64,000 nt of DNA. Origin: Chitinophagaceae bacterium. GTDB taxonomy: Bacteria; Bacteroidota; Bacteroidia; Chitinophagales; Chitinophagaceae. Where the stretch lies: assembly GCA_013140985.1 (NCBI GenBank), contig JABFRU010000021.1, positions 1 to 64,000 on the forward strand, read 5' to 3'. The notes under the pieces were generated by a model that was not told the DNA's origin, did not search any database, and saw only the letters and a program-made list of their open reading frames with translations. The translations under genes and the position numbers were made by a program. This document shows positions 14,842-52,219 of this stretch, one piece after another (within the stretch, counting starts at the first letter, position 1; every line of letters begins with the position of its first letter).

Positions 14842-14923
14842 AATAGAACACAGATGACGCAGATTTGACGGATTTAAACGGATCTGTGCAAACCGGTTTG
14901 ATCCGTGTCATCCGTGTTCTATT
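14842..14923. repeat. Gene-less palindromic element of the ATCCGTGTN family
   Basis: The left arm AATAGAACACAGATGACGCA (14842 onward, about 30 bp) is an imperfect inverted copy of the right arm ending ATCCGTGTTCTATT (14893-14923). The arms match those flanking the GxxExxY gene at 51.2-51.7 kb. No ORF lies between them, so this looks like an internally deleted, MITE-like copy. It forms the upstream region of the GT39 gene. Confidence 0.75.
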
Positions 14924-32162: not shown

Positions 32163-32510
32163 ATGTACGCTTTAAAAAACAAAGTTCAACTGATCGGTAA
32201 CCTGGGTAATGCACCTGAAGTAAAAACATTAGAGAGTGGCAAGAAGATGGCCCGCTTCAGCGTAGCCACCAGCGAGAATTACCGCAATGCAAAAGGCGAG
32301 AAAGTAACAGAAACGCAATGGCACAACCTGGTAGCATGGGGTAAAGTAGCAGAGATCGTTGAAAAATTTCTGACCAAGGGAAAAGAAGTTGCGATCGAAG
32401 GAAAGCTTATCAACCGCAGTTATAATGATAAAGAAGGAAATAAGAAATATATCACTGAAATACAAGTGAACGAATTGTTACTGTTGGGTGCGAAATCTTC
32501 TGAAGCATAA
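32163..32510 (+). CDS. ssb: Single-stranded DNA-binding protein, short form
   Basis: OB-fold SSB of 115 aa: NKVQLIGNLGNAPEVK, ARFSVATSENYRN, TQWHNLVAWGKVAEI and VAIEGKLINRSY are canonical. The protein stops right after the OB fold (ELLLLGAKSSEA) and lacks the long linker and acidic DDDIPF-type tip that recruits partner proteins. It is therefore likely a secondary SSB rather than the essential replication copy. The 218 bases upstream hold no gene. Confidence 0.93.
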   Translation: MYALKNKVQLIGNLGNAPEVKTLESGKKMARFSVATSENYRNAKGEKVTETQWHNLVAWGKVAEIVEKFLTKGKEVAIEGKLINRSYNDKEGNKKYITEIQVNELLLLGAKSSEA

Positions 32511-32515
32511 TACAA

Positions 32516-33011
32516 TTTGGCCACGAAATCACACAAAATCGACACGAAAAGATTATATGTGGTTTTGTGGTCTTCTTTTAATTTTCCGAAACCATAACAA
32601 CATGATTTTACTTTTAAAGGAGGAGGTTTATAGGATTGTAGGGTATTGTATTGAAGTTTGGAAAACCCTTGGCTATGGCTTTTCTGAAGTTATTTATAAA
32701 GATGCAATGGAAGTGGATTTCATTGAAGACGGACTTACTTTCGTCCGGGAAGAAGAACTTCATGTCTATTATAAAGGGAAAACATTGCGCCATAAATTCA
32801 AAGCGGACTTTACTTTATTTGGTAGCATTATCGTTGAGGTGAAAGCGGGAGAAGAGGGAATAAACAATGCTGTTATTTCACAAACGCTGAACTATCTTAA
32901 AGCTTCGGGTTGCCGGGTAGGCTTAATTATAAATTTTGGCAGATCAAAAATGGAATACAAAAGACTTATCGTGTAAATTTTCGTGTTATTTAGTGTGCTT
33001 TCGTGGCAAAA
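32516..33011. mobile_element. GxxExxY unit C: inverted arms of CCACGAAAN repeats around a GxxExxY gene
   Basis: The left arm (32516-32550, beginning TTTGGCCACGAAATCACAC) is an inverted, imperfect copy of the right arm (32978-33011, ending GTGTGCTTTCGTGGCAAAA). Each arm is built of roughly 9-bp CACGAAAN-like units. A further opposite-facing array (TGTGGTTTTGTGGTC) lies inside the left arm. The only gene between them is a GxxExxY protein. The unit starts 6 bases after the ssb stop and ends about 10 bases before the PIF1-like start. No clear target-site duplication was seen. Confidence 0.6.
32602..32976 (+). CDS. GxxExxY family protein (PD-(D/E)XK-like)
   Basis: A 124 aa protein of the GxxExxY family. 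The name motif is GFSEVIY in LGYGFSEVIYKDAM. A nuclease-like core follows: KADFTLFGSIIVEVKA (Asp, then E-x-K) and QTLNYLKASG. The track start at 32488 lies in the repeat arm; ATG 32602 begins the conserved part. The family is annotated as PD-(D/E)XK-like, but its biochemistry is not settled. The second copy at 51242 has the same plan with different flanking repeats. Confidence 0.85.
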   Translation: MILLLKEEVYRIVGYCIEVWKTLGYGFSEVIYKDAMEVDFIEDGLTFVREEELHVYYKGKTLRHKFKADFTLFGSIIVEVKAGEEGINNAVISQTLNYLKASGCRVGLIINFGRSKMEYKRLIV

Positions 33012-33021
33012 AAATTAAACC

Positions 33022-35547
33022 GTGGCAACATTTACCCCCGATACAAATAATGAAATGTTTCAACTGGCCATCCAGCTGGTGAACCAAAGCAACCGGAATA
33101 TCTTTCTTACGGGTAAGGCCGGTACGGGCAAAACCACTTTTTTAAAATATATCCGGGAGAATTGCCACAAGCAAATGGCTATCGTGGCTCCTACCGGCGT
33201 TGCGGCAATCAATGCCGGAGGTGTTACCATACATTCCTTTTTCCAATTACCTCTTGCCCCTTTTATTCCAGGGACAAAGGGGTTTACCGGTAATAATGAA
33301 GAAACTGTCAACCGCCATAGTTTGCTAAGCCGCCTGCGTTTCAACAGCGACAAACGAAAAGTACTACAGCAGCTGGAGCTGCTGGTGATCGACGAGATCA
33401 GCATGGTTCGCTGCGATGTGCTGGACGCCCTTGATACCATACTTCGTCATATCCGCCACCGGCCATTTGAAAGATTCGGGGGCGTTCAGCTATTATTTAT
33501 CGGGGATATGCTGCAATTGCCACCTGTTGTAAAGGAGCAGGAATGGCGATTACTTTCTGACTATTACAATGGCCAGTATTTTTTTGACAGTAAAGTATTG
33601 CAGGAAGAACCACCGGTTTATATCGAATTCAATAAAATATACAGGCAAAGCGATGAACAATTTATTGCTGTGCTGAACCAGGTGCGCAATAATGAATTGG
33701 ATGAAGAGGGAATGAAAGTACTGGAAACAAGATTTCAACCCACTTTTCGCCGCAGCAAGCAGGACGGCTATATTATTCTTACGACACACAATGAAAAAGC
33801 AAGGGAAATAAATATACGGGAACTAAGCAGCCTTGGTGGAAGCCTGTTTACATACGAAGCAGAGATCAAAGGAGAATTTTCTGACCGGGCTCATCCTGCC
33901 GATGAAATATTACAGCTGAAGACGGGAGCACAGGTTATGTTTATAAGAAATGATGCGGCCGAAAAGGGAAAACGTTTTTTCAATGGGAAGATCGGGATCG
34001 TTTCAAAACTGGAGGCAGAAAAAATATTTGTACAGTGTGAAGGAGAGTCATACGACATTGAGGTAGGCAGAGAAGAATGGGAGAATATCCGTTATACATT
34101 GAATAAAACAAACCGTCAATTAGAGTCGGATGTACTCGGTTCTTTTAAACAATATCCGTTGCGCCTTGCCTGGGCAATAACGATACACAAAAGCCAGGGA
34201 CTCACTTTCGACAAAGCGATTATTGATGCGGGAGAAGCATTTGCCCCGGGACAAGTATATGTGGCGCTGAGCCGCTGTACCAATCTTGAAGGCATGGTGC
34301 TGAAGAGCAGGGTAAGACCGGCCAGCCTGTACATGGATGCGAGAATAATTGAATTCTCAAACCGGGCGGCCACCAACAATCAACTGCAACAAGAATTAGC
34401 TGTTGCCCGGAAGGATTATCAACGATCGATATTGATTTCGTTGTTCGACTTCAGCAATGCGATTGGCAGCACAAAAGAATTAAGAGAATACATTGAAGAG
34501 CACAGCGTATCATTTAATCCTGAAACATTATCCTGGACAGATGAACTATCGTCAAGCCTCAACAAAACACAAACGACAGCGATAAAATTTCATACACAGC
34601 TAAGGGCTTTGTTTCAACAGGAACCGGCGCCGGAAGACAACCCGGTCTTAACAGAGAGAATACAAACAGCGGCAGGTTATTTTGTCAATGAAATAAGATC
34701 AGCGATACAATTTATTCAACGATCACCCGCCATTACCGATAGCCGTATTCATGCTAAAGAATATAATGAAACGCTGAAAGAGGTCTTTACAGAACTAGCC
34801 ATGAAAATTTTTTTACTGGAAGGCTTTGCCGGAAAATTTGATATTGGATATTATCATAACAGGAAGCAAAAATTTGTATTGCCCGCTATTAGCATCAATG
34901 CTTATGCAGGAGCGTCTCAAAAAAAACAGGATAGCCCACACCCCATTCTTCATCAGCAATTAAGAAAATTGAGAGAAAGCATTTGTTCCCGCAAAGACCT
35001 GCCTATCTATATTGTAGCGGGCAGTACGACCATCGATGAAATGGCCCGTTATTTACCACAAACATTAACTGAGTTGAGAAATGTAAGCGGATTTGGCGAT
35101 GCAAAAATTGAGCAATACGGACAATCATTTCTGGACGTGATAATTGAATACTGCCAGCAACGTCAGCTTTCTTCTCTTATTCATGAAAAATCTCCCAAGA
35201 AAGAACGAAAAGAAAGAATTGGCCCGGCAAAAAGGAAAGGAAATACACATGCCGAGTCGTTAAGGTTGTATAAAGAAGGAAAAACAATTGCAGCGATCGC
35301 TAAAGAAAGAAACCTGGCAACTCAGACCATCGAAGGCCATCTTTCAAAATTTGTCCGCAGTGGTGAAATCAAAGTTGATGAATTAGTAAGCCGTGAAAAG
35401 ATCATATTGATAGAATCAGCGTTGAAAAATTTTGATGGGACATCCATTGCTCCGATAAAGCAACAACTTGGTGATGAAATTGGTTTTGGAGAAATAAGAT
35501 TGGTAATAGCAAGCCTGGGGATCAGCCAGCATCATTCATCGGATTAA
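33022..35547 (+). CDS. PIF1-like helicase with HRDC and HTH domains
   Basis: Superfamily 1B DNA helicase of 841 aa. Walker A is TGKAGTGKTT (Lys 37), Walker B VIDEISM (about 125), and the late motif AITIHKSQGLTFDKAI followed by YVALSRC is diagnostic of PIF1/RecD2. A linker region (about 430-640) precedes an HRDC-like fold (640-715) and a helix-turn-helix domain (ESLRLYKEGKTIAAIAKERN, about 745 onward) also suggested at the RecQ C-terminus. Start is GTG 33022 or ATG 33055. Probably resolves G-quadruplexes or forks. Its 3' end overlaps the convergent gene by 12 bases. Confidence 0.9.
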   Translation: MATFTPDTNNEMFQLAIQLVNQSNRNIFLTGKAGTGKTTFLKYIRENCHKQMAIVAPTGVAAINAGGVTIHSFFQLPLAPFIPGTKGFTGNNEETVNRHSLLSRLRFNSDKRKVLQQLELLVIDEISMVRCDVLDALDTILRHIRHRPFERFGGVQLLFIGDMLQLPPVVKEQEWRLLSDYYNGQYFFDSKVLQEEPPVYIEFNKIYRQSDEQFIAVLNQVRNNELDEEGMKVLETRFQPTFRRSKQDGYIILTTHNEKAREINIRELSSLGGSLFTYEAEIKGEFSDRAHPADEILQLKTGAQVMFIRNDAAEKGKRFFNGKIGIVSKLEAEKIFVQCEGESYDIEVGREEWENIRYTLNKTNRQLESDVLGSFKQYPLRLAWAITIHKSQGLTFDKAIIDAGEAFAPGQVYVALSRCTNLEGMVLKSRVRPASLYMDARIIEFSNRAATNNQLQQELAVARKDYQRSILISLFDFSNAIGSTKELREYIEEHSVSFNPETLSWTDELSSSLNKTQTTAIKFHTQLRALFQQEPAPEDNPVLTERIQTAAGYFVNEIRSAIQFIQRSPAITDSRIHAKEYNETLKEVFTELAMKIFLLEGFAGKFDIGYYHNRKQKFVLPAISINAYAGASQKKQDSPHPILHQQLRKLRESICSRKDLPIYIVAGSTTIDEMARYLPQTLTELRNVSGFGDAKIEQYGQSFLDVIIEYCQQRQLSSLIHEKSPKKERKERIGPAKRKGNTHAESLRLYKEGKTIAAIAKERNLATQTIEGHLSKFVRSGEIKVDELVSREKIILIESALKNFDGTSIAPIKQQLGDEIGFGEIRLVIASLGISQHHSSD

Positions 35548-49544: not shown

Positions 49545-51215
49545 ATGATTATGCAAAAGACCCATTTAAAGATAATATTGTCGGCCCTGATCGCTGTCCA
49601 TTCCGGAAAAACGAACCTTAGGGCGCAGAAGATCGAAAAGAACCTGCGTTCACACATAGAATTCCTGGCAAGCGATAAACTGGAAGGAAGAAGGACGGGT
49701 ACCCAGGGCGAAGAGCTGGCAATGCAGTATATCACTGACCAGTTTAAAAAAGCCGGGCTACAGCCAAAAGGCAATAAAGATTTTCAACAGGCATTTGAAG
49801 TAAGCGATGGAAAGATGATGAGTGAGTCGGTTGCCTTTTCCATCAATGGAAATAAAATAGAAAAGGACAAAAATTTTTTTGTGTTCCCCTTCAGCGCCAA
49901 TATGGAAGTGGTGGCTGATATACCGCTGGTGAACCCGGAAGGAGGGGGCTCACAGATCATTGATCTGAAAGCAACGTTGGAAGAAAATAAGAACAATCCG
50001 CATTTTGATCTGCCCGAATACATTCACAAAAAAGCGAAAGAAGTGATTGCAGGTGGCGCTAATGCTGTTATTTTTTATAACAGTTCGGATATTGACGACA
50101 AACTTGTATTTGACGGGAAAAACAAATCAGAAGGACTGAACGGAGTGTCAGTGTATTTAAAAAAAGTAGAAGCGGAAAAATATTTCGGCGCTGATGCAGG
50201 TATGGTTCATGTTGAACTAACATCGGTATTGAAGGAAAAGAAAAGAACCGGTTATAATGTGATCGGTTATATAGACAATAAAGCGGCTACGACTGTTGTT
50301 TTGGGCGCACATTACGATCATTTGGGATATGGAGAAGATGGTAATTCAAGAGAAGCGGGGCATGAAAAAGGAATTCACAATGGCGCCGATGATAATGCAA
50401 GCGGCACTGCGGCATTGATAGAACTCGCATCATTATTAAAAAGAGCAAAAGCAAAGAATAATAATTATCTCTTCATTGCATTTTCGGGAGAAGAATTGGG
50501 ATTATATGGCTCAAAATATTTTGTCGAAAATCCAACGATCGATCTGAAGACAGTGAATTATATGATCAATATGGATATGGTGGGAAGATTGAATGACAGT
50601 ACAAAAGTGTTGACGATTGGAGGATATGGAACATCACCTGGATGGCCAATTTTTAGTCCAAAGGAGAAAAGAATGCAGGGAGACAATATTATAATGCCAC
50701 GACTTGTAATTAAACTTGACAGCAGCGGCATCGGCCCAAGTGATCATACATCTTTTTATAGAAAAGACATCCCGGTATTATTCTTTTTTACAGGATTGCA
50801 CACAGACTATCACAAACCAACCGATGACGCTGATAAAATAAATTATAGAGGAACGGAAATTATCATCGGGCATATTGTTGAATTGATCCATTTGCTGGAT
50901 GATGATGGCAAGCTTGCTTTTACTAAAACAAGAGAAGCACAAACAACTACTTCAGCAAGATTCAGCGTTTCAATGGGCATCATGCCGGATTATACTTTTT
51001 CCGGAACAGGTGTGAGAGCAGATGGGGTATCCGAAGGCAAGCCGGCCATGAAAGCCGGATTAAAAACCGGAGATATTATTATACAGATTGGTGATTACAA
51101 TACAAACTCATTAGAGAATTATATGCAGGCATTGGGCAAATTCAAAAAAGGCGAGAAGACCAAAGTGAAATTTAAAAGAGGAAATGAAACCCTTGAAGCC
51201 GAGGTTGAGTTTTAG
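49545..51215 (+). CDS. Secreted M28 aminopeptidase with PA and PDZ domains
   Basis: Zinc aminopeptidase of 556 aa. Signal region, then an inserted PA-type domain (about 130-235), then the M28 core with metal ligands in VLGAHYDHLG, GADDNASGTAAL, SGEELGLYGS, and GPSDHTSF. A C-terminal PDZ domain (about 470-556; GLKTGDIIIQIGDYNTNSLENY) may bind substrate C-termini. With S46 and M20 enzymes in the same window it suggests a peptide-feeding lifestyle. ATG 49545 or 49551 both possible. Confidence 0.92.
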   Translation: MIMQKTHLKIILSALIAVHSGKTNLRAQKIEKNLRSHIEFLASDKLEGRRTGTQGEELAMQYITDQFKKAGLQPKGNKDFQQAFEVSDGKMMSESVAFSINGNKIEKDKNFFVFPFSANMEVVADIPLVNPEGGGSQIIDLKATLEENKNNPHFDLPEYIHKKAKEVIAGGANAVIFYNSSDIDDKLVFDGKNKSEGLNGVSVYLKKVEAEKYFGADAGMVHVELTSVLKEKKRTGYNVIGYIDNKAATTVVLGAHYDHLGYGEDGNSREAGHEKGIHNGADDNASGTAALIELASLLKRAKAKNNNYLFIAFSGEELGLYGSKYFVENPTIDLKTVNYMINMDMVGRLNDSTKVLTIGGYGTSPGWPIFSPKEKRMQGDNIIMPRLVIKLDSSGIGPSDHTSFYRKDIPVLFFFTGLHTDYHKPTDDADKINYRGTEIIIGHIVELIHLLDDDGKLAFTKTREAQTTTSARFSVSMGIMPDYTFSGTGVRADGVSEGKPAMKAGLKTGDIIIQIGDYNTNSLENYMQALGKFKKGEKTKVKFKRGNETLEAEVEF

Positions 51216-51217
51216 AG

Positions 51218-51741
51218 AATCGAACACAGATGACACGGATCTTACGGATTTGCACCGATCGCCTTAATATCATTTGTAAATATTTTTCGCTTAAACTCCG
51301 GCTTTTTACCAAAGTTTAGGAGTAATCCTACTTCCTTGTCTGTCGCCTTAAGGTAGTTTAGAAGCTGCAATTCATGCTCTTCGGCAACAACTTCTGTCGC
51401 CTTTAGTTCCAGAATAATGAGGTTCTCAACGACGATATCAGCAAAATAATCGCCGACAACGATGTTATCATAGAATACTCGTATTGATTGTTGCTTGATA
51501 CAATGAAAACCGAGCCGGCCCAATTCAATAATCATTGCATTTAGATAAACTTTTTCCAGAAAACCATAACCCAATTTATTATAAACTATATAAAAGGTTT
51601 TGATAATCTTGTCCGTAATCTCTTTGTGTAATATCACAGAAAAATTTTGCGTAAAGTATTTTTTCTGCTAGATATGACAAAGGGAAAAAAACAAAAATAA
51701 TCCGTGTTTATCCGCCCGATCCGTGTCATCCGTGTTCTATT
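51218..51741. mobile_element. GxxExxY unit B: inverted arms of ATCCGTGTN repeats around a GxxExxY gene
   Basis: The left arm (51218-51263; AATCGAACACAGATGACACG) is an inverted copy of the right arm (51698-51741; ATCCGTGTCATCCGTGTTCT), about 45 bp each with few mismatches. The right arm is a tandem of 9-mers ATCCGTGTN. The sole gene inside reads leftward and is a GxxExxY protein. The element starts 3 bases past the M28 stop. The gene-less copy at 14842-14923 shares the same arm ends. No target-site duplication is evident. Confidence 0.65.
51242..51637 (-). CDS. GxxExxY family protein (PD-(D/E)XK-like)
   Basis: A 131 aa relative of the protein at 32602. Signature: LGYGFLEKVYLNAM, then FADIVVENLIILELKATE (Asp, E-x-K) and QLLNYLKATDKEVGLLLNFG. 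Its C-terminal residues (AIGANP) run into the left repeat arm, so the stop lies inside the repeat. The family is annotated as nuclease-like; activity is unproven. It is the only gene in unit B. Confidence 0.85.
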   Translation of the reverse strand: MILHKEITDKIIKTFYIVYNKLGYGFLEKVYLNAMIIELGRLGFHCIKQQSIRVFYDNIVVGDYFADIVVENLIILELKATEVVAEEHELQLLNYLKATDKEVGLLLNFGKKPEFKRKIFTNDIKAIGANP

Positions 51742-51769
51742 TTGTAACTTAGCTTTAAGACTCTAACCC

Positions 51770-52219
51770 ATGGCCGAACGCAGTTCCAAATTTGTATTGG
51801 ACACAAAAGGAATGACGGATAGTTTTTTTGATGACACCCGCCTGCTGGGTATCATGGCCCCCGTAAAAGATTATCAGTTCTGCTGGCATCTCAATAATAC
51901 TATCGGCCTCAACTTCCGCATCAATAATGATCTTGAGATACAACTCAACAAAAAGAAAAGAAGTTATTTTTTCTCGGTGTATGAATATGCTGAACCCACC
52001 CGTTTCTTATCGCACTATGTTTACAACAACCAGTTTGATGGTGAATATTTATTACCCGAGTTCAAACACCTCGATTTTTTATGGATGATGAAAGGAGATG
52101 AAGTAAGCGACGAGTCGTTACAGGAAACCATTCAAACTATCAAGATGATCAATAGTGTTCAATTGGTATTAGAGTTGACAAACGAAAAGATCAAAAATAA
52201 AGAGCATTTAGTTTTTTAA
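51770..52219 (+). CDS. IPExxxVDY family protein
   Basis: A 149 aa cytoplasmic protein fitting a Bacteroidota-restricted family named after its motif, here in the variant [15 protein letters not shown]. Other conserved parts are [20 protein letters not shown] and [15 protein letters not shown]. No known function and no signal peptide. It starts 29 bases outside the right arm of GxxExxY unit B, so the element may have altered its promoter. Confidence 0.85.

Follow-up and report, generated by a model that had tools for sequence, protein, structure and literature searches.

A small gene of the GxxExxY nuclease family, enclosed by two inverted arms, appears to form a minimal mobile element whose arms are recognized by the PD-(D/E)XK nuclease it encodes, with arms specific to each nuclease subfamily and gene-less arm pairs as non-autonomous copies (a reading to which we assign a probability of roughly two in three). 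The unit has defined ends, its arm type is paired with its nuclease type, and related genomes either carry or lack it as a whole; on the model of RAYTs and REPINs we infer, as the best reading, that the nuclease itself moves it. It seems to be a minimal mobile element of a kind not described before, in which an arm-gene-arm block is found in some related species and missing from others. The original prediction that the GxxExxY protein and the repeat are a functional pair is supported by arm-protein covariation, by gene-less copies and by the gene-arm association in 200 Flavobacterium genomes. Its comparison with REP sequences and RAYT transposases fits as an analogy of layout, and its suggestion of a mobile unit of a new type fits as well, although neither transposition nor excision was directly observed.

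In the window (the whole 64,000-nucleotide stretch of Chitinophagaceae DNA that was analyzed), the unit occupies positions 51219–51740 (522 bp, unstranded), between a gene named M28-type peptidase in the original prediction (49545–51215, plus strand) and one that adjoins it in congeners (51770–52219, plus strand), which we take to encode an IPExxxVDY-type protein. The left arm (51219–51259, plus strand, ATCGAACACAGATGACACGGATCTTACGGATTTGCACCGAT) and the inverted right arm (51700–51740, minus strand, ATAGAACACGGATGACACGGATCGGGCGGATAAACACGGAT when read inward) are each 41 bp long, and the unit starts 3 bases past the M28 stop codon (51215). Together, 51212–51259 and 51700–51747 form a 48-nt inverted pair that is 77% complementary, the longest in the window. 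The enclosed GxxExxY/PDDEXK_3 nuclease gene (51242–51637, minus strand; 131 aa, GTG start) has its stop codon within the left arm and runs opposed to both neighbors. The predicted arrangement, two inverted arms around one small nuclease-like gene just after the M28 stop, is confirmed. The first three inverted pairs reported for the window also include a double arm at 14842–14923 (41 nt, zero spacer) and a pair belonging to a second unit at 32516–33011 (24 nt, 88%). The former corresponds to a gene-less copy with two arms of the same type joined tail to tail (14843–14922, 80 bp, unstranded). The second unit (unstranded) has another arm type (GCCACGAAATCACACAAAA...), lies between ssb (32163–32510) and a helicase-like gene (33022–35547), and carries its own GxxExxY gene (32602–32976, plus strand, with a putative ATG start within the open reading frame 32488–32976). 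The gene-less palindrome and this differently armed unit are probably the two further loci to which the original prediction referred.

The GxxExxY family is named merely after a motif. The window nuclease (51242–51637) matched PF13366 (E = 6e-37, 127 bits against a cut-off of 22) and TIGR04256 (E = 7e-36, 123 bits against a cut-off of 35). The closest solved folds found by Foldseek for its AF2 model (pLDDT 92, pTM 0.85) were the Cas4 protein SSO0001 (E = 2e-4) and exonucleases of the lambda type; TM-scores were moderate, at about 0.5. Residues D67, E77, K79, Q91 and Y95 (D...ExK...QxxxY) were invariant in ten GxxExxY sequences from several subfamilies. Judged by modeled fold and by these residues, the protein is a member of the RecB/Cas4/lambda-exonuclease branch of PD-(D/E)XK proteins, with predicted nuclease activity and a putative catalytic role. 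It shares the predicted fold and the invariant D, ExK and QxxxY with Cas4, RecB and lambda exonuclease (the QxxxY branch), but differs from them in being a short single domain, in the specific inverted arms around its gene and in lying outside any CRISPR or recBCD setting. A sequence search of the PDB returned no solved structure. Phage or plasmid carriage was rejected as an explanation, with no PHROG matches, no phage records at the sensitivity used and seven plasmid records carrying GxxExxY, as was a defense system, for which PADLOC gave just weak Cas4-like and candidate-system matches. The family is nonetheless not absent from viruses: Foldseek found near folds among viral models, one from an archaeal virus, and one GxxExxY-family protein has been annotated in an algal virus (PMC12085832).

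Within the order, 23 of 39 genomes carried GxxExxY genes, with up to 10 in a single genome. Arm scores of at least 28 were reached at 70% of 70 loci in the order, compared with 3.1% of mismatched flank pairs (the upstream flank of one locus with the downstream flank of a different one) and 1.6% of regions lying at a distance of 500 bp. When GTDB genomes were scanned with a four-sequence alignment (a ten-sequence alignment was too diverse), 80 relatives (59–72% identical) were recovered from Bacteroidota, Ignavibacteria, Desulfobacterota, Methanoperedens and other Euryarchaeota, Chloroflexi, Cloacimonadota, Nitrospinia and others, many of them metagenome bins whose individual taxon labels may be wrong. 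Inverted arms were detected at 74% of 74 distant relatives and at none of 128 controls. The expectation that GxxExxY genes in related genomes would have armed flanks therefore held, at about 70% of loci versus 0–1.6% of control flanks.

Arm sequence covaried with the nuclease. Across 131 loci (8515 pairs), arm similarity was correlated with protein identity (Spearman 0.55, versus 0.01 for distant flanks of those loci), and none of 300 permutations in a Mantel test reached the observed value. Arm scores of at least 30 were found for 0–1% of pairs below 35% protein identity, 48% at 60–70% and 83% above 70%, where the last class includes close pairs at orthologous sites, whose control flanks reach that score in just 9%. 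Protein clusters map to arm types, the GFLEKVY type (c7, the subfamily of the window unit) to ATRGAACRCNGAT, and others to CRCARAG, CACGAATT or CACGAAA (c9), CACATAG or CATTAAG, TGTCTGAACCATGATTT, GCCGGTAAG and AAAAGAG. Arm similarity follows protein identity across bacteria and archaea as well. At the ssb-helicase site, found occupied by eight GxxExxY copies in seven congeneric genomes, three groups of proteins are distinguished and have three arm versions, in which both arms change together and match each other. GxxExxY proteins at this site are 42–82% identical pairwise, whereas the SSBs are 79–95% identical to that of the window, which points either to fast in-place co-evolution or to repeated replacement. 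A GxxExxY unit occupied this intergenic site at all of the loci compared (window 32163–33022 and L090, L093, L095, L097, L098, L100 and L101).

Comparison of empty sites, as called for by the original prediction, showed the block to be present or absent at the M28 site, at Flavobacterium units and at an acs-polA junction. Together with the armed flanks, this means that the prediction survived both of the refuting conditions set for it. The M28 gene and its next gene are roughly 15–85 bp apart in five congeners (six loci), compared with 554 bp in the window, an empty site established at the gene level. Empty sites were found for six Flavobacterium units (L250, L249, L261, L259, L255 and L176). 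L250 (about 600 bp) is missing from genome G100 and L249 from G092, with flanks 93–98% identical; L261 is missing from three species, where the flanks join almost seamlessly; and the remaining three are missing from sister genomes. For two of the six units, flank identity is 96–98%. The acs-polA junction holds a unit in G252 and lacks it in G255. Because the intergenic DNA at most empty sites has diverged or been remodeled, few boundaries are base-exact, and gain and loss are not always separable. At the L249 site, a hairpin resembling a terminator is found in G092 and a gene-less palindrome in G039, hence such intergenic spots are remodeled. Two smaller observations concern these sites: in L154 (5190–5200) the acs stop codon apparently derives from the terminal ATAG of the unit, where the empty relative has TAA, and a palindrome on ATTCCAA/TTGGAAT occupies the spot where the L176 unit is missing (L228 and L229).

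Some units occupy one site in many congeners, which suggests long residence. The pair could be a domesticated host system, kept vertically for repair, chromosome maintenance or autoregulation, with the palindromes as scattered binding sites and mobility a thing of the past. We regard this as unlikely, although it accounts for several features. The GxxExxY gene is under purifying selection (dN/dS 0.08–0.26 among orthologues at a Flavobacterium site), the ssb-helicase unit is common to the seven congeneric genomes, and genomes almost never hold more than one gene-bearing unit of a subfamily (1 of 117 same-genome pairs was at least 60% identical). Moreover, at arm-bearing loci whose neighbors both run in the same direction, the gene was co-directional in 90 cases and opposed in 5, suggesting expression by read-through. 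A vertically kept system is harder to reconcile with patchy presence and absence among species that are 96–98% identical, with the same arms at 59–72% identical proteins of Bacteroidota, Desulfobacterota, Chloroflexi and archaea, or with gene-less copies and arrays.

The structure of the arms bears on how they would be recognized. When c7 arms were aligned on GAAC, information rose sharply at AT, with background outside (consensus ATRGAACRCNGATNACACNGATNNNACNGATNNNCACNGATT), giving the subfamily sharp ends (ATRGAACRCNGAT...). The termini of the 51219–51740 unit were fixed via the family consensus ATRGAAC, and it is counted among 33 units with both termini, 454–686 bp in length. The arms had been described as tandem 9-mers. 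A repeated motif is indeed present (ATCCGTGTNATCCGTGT has four matches with at most two mismatches in the window, versus 0.02 expected), but the arms are not a plain 9-mer tandem, consisting instead of four ACNGAT units at offsets of 9, 9 and 10 with the conserved terminus ATRGAAC. The 33 complete units show no direct repeat beyond the terminal AT; a target duplication, if there is one, could be this 2-bp AT, or TTAA in another subfamily.

It is improbable that the arms are RNA or DNA hairpins (terminators, mRNA stabilizers or cruciforms) with the gene merely lying in between, as might be supposed from their inverted layout, from the position of units right after stop codons (median 5 bp, versus 13 bp from a start codon) and from the hairpin that fills one empty site. 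Agreement at degenerate positions between arms of the same c7 unit was no better than chance relative to arms of different units (0.43 versus 0.33, 0.53 versus 0.48 and 0.40 versus 0.34; pooled P of about 0.10, n = 30), and was similar when G-U pairs were allowed, although a weak pairing effect may exist at this sample size. Their purine position agreed within units (0.80 versus 0.56), as expected if a single protein reads both arms. Because the degenerate positions are unmatched between the two arms, these look like protein-recognized ends and not hairpin stems, and the sequence comparison favors protein recognition over stem pairing. A hairpin or terminator role was rejected, as this compensation test gave it no support; in addition, arm type tracks protein subfamily, and an Rfam search with the arms returned no RNA family.

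Among 200 Flavobacterium genomes, those with a c7-type gene (E ≤1e-24, n = 81) had a mean of 12.7 c7-type arms, compared with 2.9 in those without (n = 119; medians 8 versus 0). The difference was significant (P = 2.5e-14, or 3e-9 after subtracting two arms per c7 genome, with kinship and genome size ignored), and a control arm pattern was near zero. A stricter rule, that arms occur only where the gene exists, was discarded, as arms are numerous in several genomes that lack a matching gene. The 4.0-Mb genome of Flavobacterium G244 (L330–L335), for example, holds 49 c7-type arms and no c7-type GxxExxY gene; these arms are either relics or moved by something else. Such orphan arms would suit the ends of an ordinary insertion sequence or MITE on which a conventional transposase acts in trans, with GxxExxY as a passenger. 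This account has little probability, given that arm sequence covaries with GxxExxY itself, that arms are enriched alongside the matching subfamily, and that complete units are too small for a conventional transposase.

Pattern matching in ten sources, the window and nine GTDB loci, identified 23 gene-less arm pairs, mostly 85–86 bp long. Arms away from genes numbered 72 in 0.72 Mb, versus 1 in shuffled sequence, and gene-less copies ranked first or second in similarity to the arms of the resident gene at 4 of 6 testable loci. At L115, tandem arrays of about 95-bp palindromes flank the gene on both sides, and shorter arrays occur at L118 and L171. Chance or low-complexity tandem repeats, as short units in A+T-rich intergenic DNA might suggest, are refuted by these counts, the motif excess and the flank controls, and are barely credible.

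In the mobile element that we favor, a PD-(D/E)XK nuclease of about 130 aa (Cas4/RecB/lambda-exonuclease type) would recognize two inverted arms of about 41 bp as its own ends, each arm being an ordered set of short recognition units. The nuclease would bind and cut the arms, acting on DNA and not RNA, and excision and insertion would proceed via arm cutting plus host repair or replication. Nuclease subfamilies would read different unit sequences, so that several units could coexist in a genome free of cross-talk, while the gene-less pairs (about 85 bp, at times in tandem arrays) would be non-autonomous copies reliant, now or formerly, on the matching nuclease.

We know of no mobility assay on any enzyme of the GxxExxY family, nor of this nuclease fold among stand-alone mobility enzymes. 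Searches of an open-access library found no paper tying TIGR04256/PF13366 GxxExxY to arms or mobility, and nothing on the arm sequences. As in REP/REPIN-RAYT systems, a nuclease-type gene lies between inverted short repeats of a protein-specific type (PMC3116915, PMC8266576). The two also share extragenic location, low gene copy number and gene-less doublets and tandem arrays elsewhere, and in the layout of a repeat-flanked gene with doublets elsewhere GxxExxY units agree with REP-RAYT. RAYTs, however, are HUH tyrosine nucleases whose substrates are REP stem-loops, single-stranded and marked by a GTAG tag (PMC3116915, PMC8266576), whereas the GxxExxY enzyme has a PD-(D/E)XK fold and arms of about 41 bp with ordered 9–10-bp units, unpaired at degenerate positions and present in up to tens, not hundreds, of copies. 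The 51219–51740 unit contains no HUH/Y1 tyrosine transposase, its sole match being PDDEXK_3/GxxExxY, and no base-paired REP stem-loop with a GTAG tag, as the arm consensus lacks GTAG. Insertion sequences that end in terminal inverted repeats, with their MITEs, likewise have one gene between inverted ends and short non-autonomous derivatives, and the GxxExxY units resemble them in having empty sites in relatives. Both termini are present in 33 complete units, but the gene between them falls outside known mobility genes (no DDE, HUH or recombinase gene; no known transposase family in the 51219–51740 unit). The ends, moreover, differ between subfamilies within one genome. Since the unit departs from RAYTs in fold and stem-loop tag and lacks a known transposase, we place it in neither family.

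We rate at slightly below even odds the broader claim of a new transposable-element class, with a stand-alone Cas4/RecB-like PD-(D/E)XK nuclease, arms of about four 9–10-bp units and many orthogonal pairs across bacteria and archaea. A role in a mobile system, if correct, would explain both the GxxExxY family and several anonymous repeats (ATCCGTGTNATCCGTGT, CACAAAG, CGCAGAG and CACGAAA types) and would add a nuclease fold to the stand-alone mobility enzymes. The covarying nuclease-arm pairs form a natural library in which DNA recognition by GxxExxY is directly testable.

Of the nine GxxExxY loci in the genome from which the window derives, one is interrupted by stops. Most of the nine have visible inverted arms whose sequence varies from copy to copy, and the eight loci other than the 51219–51740 unit have arm similarity scores of 32–45. 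At L014 (G000 C53:28675–28818), the palindrome of one arm type is nested within a pair of another type, and in the left flank of L038 and L039 an arm region of the CGCAGAT type is repeated in tandem about three times.
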